Shown here in pieces: positions 36-40,423 of a DNA stretch of 44,619 nucleotides. This stretch comes from Bacteroidota bacterium (GTDB lineage Bacteria; Bacteroidota; Bacteroidia; 2-12-FULL-35-15): NCBI GenBank assembly GCA_025363555.1, contig JANYDQ010000251.1:1-44619 (forward strand), in the 5' to 3' direction. Position 1 is the first letter of the stretch, and each line of letters begins with the position of its first letter. The translations under genes and the position numbers were made by a program. The notes beneath the pieces were generated by a model. The model was not told where the DNA came from. It did not search any database and worked only from the letters and a program-made list of their open reading frames with translations.

Positions 36-277
36 TGACAAGAAAATGGAATTTTTCCGATTGGAAATGGAGTTTTTCCAATCGGAAATAACATTTTCGC
101 GATAGCAAAAAAGCCATTCCCGATTGGAAAAGAGATTTTTGCGATAGCAAAAAAAGCATTCCCGATAGGAAATACAATTTCCGCGATAGCGAAAATGATT
201 TTCGCTATCGCAAAAAACGTTTTTGCTATCGCCAAAAACATTTTTCCGATTGGAAATGGAGCATTGCCGACAGTTGG
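36..277. repeat. Tandem array of degenerate 21-bp units with dyad cores (CCGATTGG/CCAATCGG and GCGATAGC/GCTATCGC)
   Basis: Octamer cores start at 57,78,99,120,141,162,183,204,225,246 (exact 21-bp steps), degenerate at 36 and 267. Cores are flanked by T-tracts on the left and A-tracts on the right. Confidence 0.95.
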
Positions 278-1091: not shown

Positions 1092-1166
1092 AAAGCACCG
1101 GGAACATCGAATTGTAGCTGTAATTGCAATTGCAGTTTTTATAGATGTTTCCGTTGCTTTTTTTTA
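1092..1166 (+). terminator. Long-stem terminator-like inverted repeat
   Basis: AAAGCACCGGGAACATC (1092-1108) pairs with GATGTTTCCGTTGCTTT (1144-1160) with 2 mismatches, followed by a T-run. Confidence 0.65.
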
Positions 1167-26640: not shown

Positions 26641-26793
26641 CTAAACAGTTACCCTCACACCGAACGCGACTGATAAAAGTATTCTTGTTTTTTTTTGAGA
26701 ACTCTTTTTTATTTTATCCGAATACTTCGTTAACAACAAAAAAATTTCTTATAAATTTCCGAAAATTGTTTAAAAATAACCGCAAACCTGATA

Positions 26794-26940
26794 TTTGAAC
26801 ATTTAGAGTTAAAGTTTGAGTCTTTAGAGTTCAAGTTTGAAACATTAAACTTAAAGTTTGGAACTTGAGAGTTCAAGTTTGAAACATTAAACTTAAAGTT
26901 TGAAACTTGAAAGTTAAAGTATGAAATAACAGAATTTTAG
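26794..26940. repeat. Tandem array of degenerate 21-bp units (consensus about TTTGAAACATTAAACTTAAAG)
   Basis: Unit starts at 26794,26815,26836,26857,26878,26899,26920; every step 21 bp. Confidence 0.95.
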
Positions 26941-27090
26941 GCTGATTGATTGAAAAACAGAGAAAAATTAAAACACATAAATCAAAAAAACTATAATAAC
27001 TACGATAATTACAGTAAAACAAGGAAGAAGTTTGTATAACCACCAACTCCAAATAAATTCTAAAAAAACATCCATTTTAAAGTTTATGGG

Positions 27091-27128: not shown

Positions 27129-27388
27129 TTCCGGTCATTTTTGACCATTTTTGATGTTTTTTGCTTCATTTTTGAATATGGTGTTGTTGTGTTCGAATAC
27201 GAAGCAACCGTATTTAAAAACAATGTTATCTTAACACAGAAATGATGTAACCGTATTCGAAAGTGATGCAACCGTATTCGAACATGATGTAACCTTATTC
27301 GAACGCGAAGCAATCCGAACACAAGAATGATGTAAACCGTATCCGGTAGCGAAGCAACCTGTTCGAACACGGTGTAACTGTGTTCAGA
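27129..27388. repeat. Tandem array of 21-bp (occasionally 22-bp) units with TTCGAA-like cores
   Basis: Cores at 27129(TTCCGG),27150,27171,27192(TTCGAA),27213,27256,27277,27298,27341,27362,27383; spacer motif about GATGtAACCGTA. Confidence 0.88.
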
Positions 27389-27487: not shown

Positions 27488-27529
27488 TTTTTGGATAACT
27501 GCGTACACTTTTTGGATAACTGCGTACAG
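27488..27529. repeat. Two-unit 21-bp tandem repeat TTTTTGGATAACTGCGTACA[C/G]
   Basis: 27488-27508 and 27509-27529 differ only at the last base. Confidence 0.9.
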
Positions 27530-40115: not shown

Positions 40116-40292
40116 TTATACCGATGGTTAAGTTTGATTGGAAAAAATCTACAAACGCTGCCAACACCCAATTAGGTCGTTATGTTAGCGGAAAGAAGAT
40201 ATATTTCCAAACCGAATTAAGTGTTGTGTTGCATGACATAAGTCAGACGATTGACATCAGGATTAAATAACCGAAAACAACCCGAAGAGGAC

Positions 40293-40376
40293 GTAATTGT
40301 TACATTTTGGTCTGTAATTGTTACATTATGGTCAGTGATTGTTACATTATGGCCTATTATTTTTTTGATATGGCCG
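40293..40376. repeat. 21-bp tandem array with TGTAATTGTTACA-type dyad core
   Basis: Clear units at 40293,40314,40335 (GTAATTGTTACATTTTGGTCT / GTAATTGTTACATTATGGTCA / GTGATTGTTACATTATGGCCT), degenerate unit at 40356. Confidence 0.9.
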
Positions 40377-40423
40377 GACAGATTGGTACAAAATTTCAAT
40401 TTATCGAGAGCACGCCAAATAAA

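Follow-up and report, generated by a model that had tools for sequence, protein, structure and literature searches.

Array 1, a tandem repeat near the start of the 44,619-nucleotide stretch of Bacteroidota DNA analyzed here (the window), belongs to a class of gene-linked arrays in which short dyad sites recur at an interval of two helical turns (about 21 bp). Across the sampled genomes, these arrays keep their period and an excess of strand-symmetric dyads, stand before one family of orphan genes with which they co-occur, have leaders enriched for an rRNA-type -7 box and boxA, and carry no codon signature. The unit sequence differs at most loci and changes faster than the gene, while the period stays near 21. 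The arrays before the family genes point to an undescribed regulatory module. No description of them was found in the open PMC literature, and we know of no regulatory kind that fits a period and dyad kept while the sequence changes by locus, together with one gene family in three phyla. If functional, the arrays would amount to a sequence-agnostic cis code and offer an initial way into a large orphan gene family.

Array 1 and its locus

Array 1 lies at positions 36 to 287 of the plus strand and comprises twelve 21-bp registers by self-match, ten of them clean (57-266) and one at each end degenerate (36-56 and 267-287). The octamer cores of the clean units, to which no strand was assigned, start at 57, 78, 99, 120, 141, 162, 183, 204, 225, and 246, each with a T-tract on its left and an A-tract on its right. 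The register does not slip, as the original prediction had stated. It had also described two alternating core classes. Two classes are indeed present, but they are mixed rather than strictly alternating: the cores read CCGATTGG at 57, 120, and 246, CCAATCGG at 78, GCGATAGC at 99, 141, and 183, and GCTATCGC at 204 and 225, and the core CCGATAGG at 162 is a hybrid that had been overlooked. At lags 21, 42, and 63, self-match within the array reaches 0.602, 0.610, and 0.550, respectively. In 1,000 dinucleotide-preserving shuffles, a comparison of the sort that had been suggested, the lag-21 value averaged 0.269 (standard deviation, 0.031) with a maximum of 0.355, and the highest value at any lag was 0.416. 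Orthologous loci were checked and are periodic as well, so that the claim stands.

Both core orientations occur in array 1, and the units are therefore able to pair both internally and with one another. When positions 36 to 287 were folded as single-stranded DNA, the energy z score was -9.1, and the self-complementarity of the array was the strongest among 91 arrays (z = -10.9 against its own column permutations).

The left edge of the window is a contig end. Its positions 1 to 141 are identical to the final 141 bp of contig C284, which most likely lies directly upstream for this reason. C284 has no further clean units to the left of array 1, and the array is not extended leftward. The end of C284 contains a boxA-like CGTTCTTTG about 80 bp to the left of window base 1. 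No clear TAnnTTTG (-7) box was seen near it, and an intrinsic terminator immediately upstream of this boxA was not supported. Upstream of the boxA, at C284:17692-17842 (the end of locus L009), there is a conserved block, GTAGTGAACCTTACTACT ... CCTGAACCTGTAACAGTATGGTTGGGCAA, which recurs at the C273, C224, G014, and G027 loci and has no Rfam match above the gathering score.

On the other side, a plus-strand spacer at 288-451, the presumed 5' untranslated region (UTR), leads from the array to the start codon, with related sequence at C217, C273, C224, and the G027 ortholog. It is followed on the same strand by an orphan gene at 452-1069, which encodes a 205-residue protein of a multicopy family found in three phyla, and, at the gene end, by a terminator-like long hairpin with a T-run at 1092-1162 (plus strand; -30.3 kcal/mol; z = -6.7). 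Next to relatives, a comparable motif is seen. The ortholog of 452-1069 in each of two related genomes lies about 5 to 7 kb from the 16S rRNA gene (G027:C29 and G035:C218; loci L281 and L280).

The gene family and the arrays before it

The 452-1069 protein has no Pfam match of its own, five of its relatives match fn3, and the family profile matches fibronectin type III (FN3) chains in the PDB. Helices at residues 14-30, 42-56, and 62-90 precede the C-terminal FN3 fold. AlphaFold2 modeled three helices and an FN3 sandwich with a pLDDT of 88.6 and a pTM of 0.52, the latter leaving the domain arrangement uncertain, and the Foldseek matches listed for the model are FN3-domain structures. The N-terminal helices matched no known DNA-binding domain. 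The family is present in 66 of the 297 genomes that sample the bacterial class, with about 15 to 25 paralogs in ten genomes of the genus, seven in one incomplete genome of the genus, and none to two in most others. Relatives occur in Prosthecobacter, a Verrucomicrobia subdivision 3 metagenome-assembled genome (MAG), an Acidobacteria MAG, and Chitinophagales; the genomes compared are drafts, and those of the named relatives are all MAGs. Carriage of the P0002 family by phages, plasmids, or viruses was rejected, as no match was found. A defence or phage family was likewise rejected: there was one weak PADLOC match, and the weak, mostly tail-protein PHROG matches are expected from the FN3 domain.

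Profile HMMs located 136 family genes, 129 with a usable upstream region. At a threshold that no shuffle reached, an array was found within 700 bp upstream of 94 of the 129 and downstream of 11 of 130, counts in which paralogs are not independent of one another. The link of array 1 to its downstream gene is real. The best lags of the upstream arrays were 21 (40 arrays), 42 (37), and 41 (7), and those of the downstream positives were mostly others, such as 14. Fresh loci taken from other families of the class were array positive in about 17 of 21 cases, with periods of 21 or 42 and also 41, 43, 44, and 46, and arrays are present at the Verrucomicrobiota, Acidobacteria, and Chitinophagales loci. 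Upstream regions of relatives contain arrays with the period of array 1 and different units. Array 1 itself has the features by which the class was judged: a period of about two helical turns, an intergenic position upstream of a gene for a three-helix and FN3 protein, a boxA-like GTTCTTT upstream, and unit self-complementarity above that of column permutations. At the Prosthecobacter loci L195 and L197, a short reading frame between array and family gene is conserved (TWxGxDAQGxPLRW ... PGLTWxGFLPQP).

Averaged over the period-21 arrays, self-match reaches 0.64, 0.67, and 0.62 at lags 21, 42, and 63, against about 0.32 one base to either side and about 0.27 elsewhere; the mean autocorrelation rises only at 20 to 22 and their multiples and shows no component at 7, 10 to 11, or 14. 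An origin of the arrays from 7-bp repeats was rejected, as the lag-7/14 term is absent. Tandem repeats of 7 or 14 bp (for example, CAACTAA, AAATAGG, and GCGGTTC) do occur near family genes, sometimes adjoining 21-bp arrays (L042, L114, L102, L161, L213, and L197). Selection on spacing and dyad, proposed for array 1 alone, is supported well beyond it, the period of about 21 bp being kept at loci with unrelated units.

The units themselves turn over quickly. Among pairs with 70 to 90% protein identity, the array was similar in 4 of 13 and the spacer in 9 of 13; at 50 to 70% identity, the figures were 7 of 85 and 13 of 85. Loci L122 and L123 of one genome encode paralogs that are 84% identical and have unrelated arrays, which argues against strict sequence-specific self-recognition. 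Genome G000 has related arrays whose gene is truncated (C224) or absent (C298), and its array at C273 resembles that of G027. In the indel spectrum between related arrays, the repeat alignments over-gap.

Such turnover, the solitary or truncated copies seen in G000 (C224, C273, and C298), the many stand-alone arrays, and a patchy, all-or-none distribution would suit arrays without function, arising where replication or recombination makes 21-bp tandem copies and hitchhiking with a mobile gene family. We consider this rather unlikely in view of the strong upstream bias, which recurs across unrelated genomes and in three phyla, and of the spacing, which is held even where spacers are near random: the 14 units of L198 show no slip with only about 6 bases per unit conserved.

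Within the genus, no intergenic period-21 array was found in 376 kb of sampled family-negative genomes versus 16 in 400 kb of family-positive ones, a co-occurrence that may be a clade effect; the control loci are samples rather than whole genomes. Array density in positive genomes is 40 per Mb, and similar in other DNA; we estimate by extrapolation about 160 to 200 arrays per genome. Many have no adjoining family gene; some of these precede further orphan families, and others stand alone. The co-occurrence across genomes means that a trans factor, if there is one, should be findable by comparative genomics. Reverse transcriptase and extra NusG copies were both rejected as candidates, as neither co-occurs with the arrays.

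The other orphan genes directly behind period-21 arrays encode 220 to 320 residues, almost without Pfam matches. They group as L176:12839-13504 with L182:11757-12425, as L184:335-1246 with L185:13540-14442 and L013:19-933, and as three separate families at L180:1240-1950, L187:2871-3836, and L012:390-1082. Most genomes in which the L184 family occurs are array positive.

Reading frames, dyads, and leaders

Seven codons make 21 bp, and the arrays might therefore encode heptapeptide repeats, such as [AP]-I-[AG]-[KN]-x-x-F on either strand, an alternative that the original prediction itself had named. In array 1, the two orientations of a core differ synonymously in the heptapeptide frame, and a minus-strand frame is open across 14-385; among the arrays, sense ATG frames span 26 of 79 versus 18.2 expected. 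Against coding, the plus frame of array 1 meets an in-frame TGA at 36 and lacks a start codon ahead of the repeats, and column variability over 78 arrays shows no period-3 signal (0.040 versus 0.049 for the null). Most arrays have no spanning open reading frame (ORF), antisense frames are open as often as sense frames, and some arrays have periods of 20, 41, 43, 44, or 46, so that periods indivisible by three exist. That array 1 reads as the heptapeptide on both strands follows from its dyads and a period divisible by three. Open frames are slightly commoner in arrays than in column-permuted arrays on both strands, which we take as a base-composition effect, though single loci may be coding. 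For the class as a whole, the period-3 and ORF tests do not support coding, and we regard it as highly improbable. Arrays of this kind would explain the spurious heptapeptide-repeat ORFs that they produce.

Self-complementarity was compared between arrays and their own column permutations, which preserve period, divergence, and base composition, with only Watson-Crick pairs counted. The arrays exceeded the permuted versions both for short spans (mean z = -1.45; P = 1.5e-11) and with unlimited span (mean z = -1.75; P = 8e-11), again in favor of selection on the dyad, with only about 36 to 45% of arrays individually significant. Folding energies of sense and antisense RNA are equal (P = 0.45), and stem mismatches comprise 61 G.T and 56 A.C; equal folding of the strands and the missing G.T excess favor symmetry at the DNA level over RNA stems. 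RNA stems with G-U drift were accordingly rejected, there being no strand or mismatch asymmetry. Phased A-tract curvature was rejected too: the AAA/TTT autocorrelation has no 10- to 11-bp component, which leaves the DNA bending considered in the original prediction unsupported in this form. Cooperative binding, bending, and a decoy role had been offered there as possible functions, and all three stay conjectural.

Array leaders are enriched for a -7 box and boxA (GTTCTTT), both as in the rRNA operons of these genomes. In an unbiased k-mer count over 93 leaders, top motifs included TACTTTTG (10 leaders versus 1 on the opposite strand) and GTTCTTT (16 versus 5), and CGTTCTTT was found in 8 versus 0; boxA-like motifs are present in only 17 of the 93. 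The rRNA leaders of G035, G027, and G000 have TACTTTTG, then GTTCTTTA/G, and then GTTCTTTG ahead of the 16S gene, and the G035 16S-23S spacer has GTTCTTTGACA. Evidence for boxA is weaker at arrays without a family gene (6 versus 2). The enrichment suggests that some arrays are probably transcribed within untranslated leaders under antitermination.

The arrays could then act as RNA, either as serial small hairpins or as long hairpins of inverted units, and regulate within the transcript or after processing to pieces of about 21 nucleotides. Their position behind rRNA-type promoter boxes and boxA fits this, as do a purine richness in the direction of the gene (P = 0.0004 versus leaders) of the sort seen in transcribed RNA and folding well above that of their own permutations. 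There is also precedent in Legionella, where GTTCTTTAAAA is the boxA ahead of a CRISPR array and boxA increases transcription through such arrays (PMC7862264). Still, the stems have no G-U bias, the sense strand has no folding advantage, and Rfam searches of 14 loci gave five matches, all under the gathering score. Taken together, we find an RNA-level role fairly unlikely.

A candidate mechanism and known repeat systems

The explanation we favor, tentatively, is a nucleoprotein array formed on the DNA of the leader at two-turn spacing. Part of the class probably lies within the transcribed, untranslated 5' leaders of orphan genes, downstream of the rRNA-type promoter box and boxA antitermination signal. 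Protein dimers would most likely occupy the dyads along a single helical face, and the two-turn spacing would make their binding cooperative. The resulting array could set the expression of the downstream gene by block, release, or memory. As spacing and symmetry are conserved and sequence is not, the binder would be either shape-reading or frequently re-matched. A broader version, which seems possible but somewhat unlikely, is a horizontally spread module with a genome-wide trans factor that reads spacing and dyad symmetry instead of sequence; the array of each orphan gene would drift freely and be kept by a process that builds or corrects it in steps of two helical turns.

Iteron and operator arrays, as at plasmid origins and centromere-like partition sites, place tandem sites whole helical turns apart, which suits cooperative binding along a single face. 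Array 1 shares this arrangement. Iterons and operators, however, have one sequence per cognate protein and are located at origins or partition loci, whereas here nearly every locus within one genome has a different unit, and the arrays stand before orphan chromosomal genes.

CRISPR arrays with a boxA leader (PMC7862264) are similar in being repeat arrays in a transcribed, untranslated unit behind boxA, transcription here being probable. They differ in having constant repeats and unique spacers, in place of which we find 21-bp tandem units followed by an ordinary gene. TAACTGA heptamer direct repeats in Beggiatoaceae, Cyanobacteria, and some Bacteroidetes have a fixed 7-bp sequence near the start codon, and the functions of the genes behind them follow no pattern (PMC4679880). 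Like the present arrays, they are intergenic tandem repeats upstream of genes, patchy across phyla and without assigned function, but the present arrays have a 21-bp period with no lag-7/14 excess, vary in sequence, and are tied to one gene family. REP and other palindromic intergenic repeats (PMC3733652) are likewise short intergenic dyads; they form families with shared sequence, in contrast to the locus-specific units in strict tandem register seen here.

Four further 21-bp repeats, with units differing from one another, were observed in the window, none with a directly adjoining family gene. They lie at 26767-26973 (unit TTTGAAACTTTAAAGTTAAAG), 27209-27315 (unit ATGATGTAACCGTATTCGAAC), 27488-27528 (two copies only of unit TTTTTGGATAACTGCGTACAC), and 40269-40399 (unit GTAATTGTTACATTATGGTCA), the last upstream of an ORF that was named integrase-like by eye.
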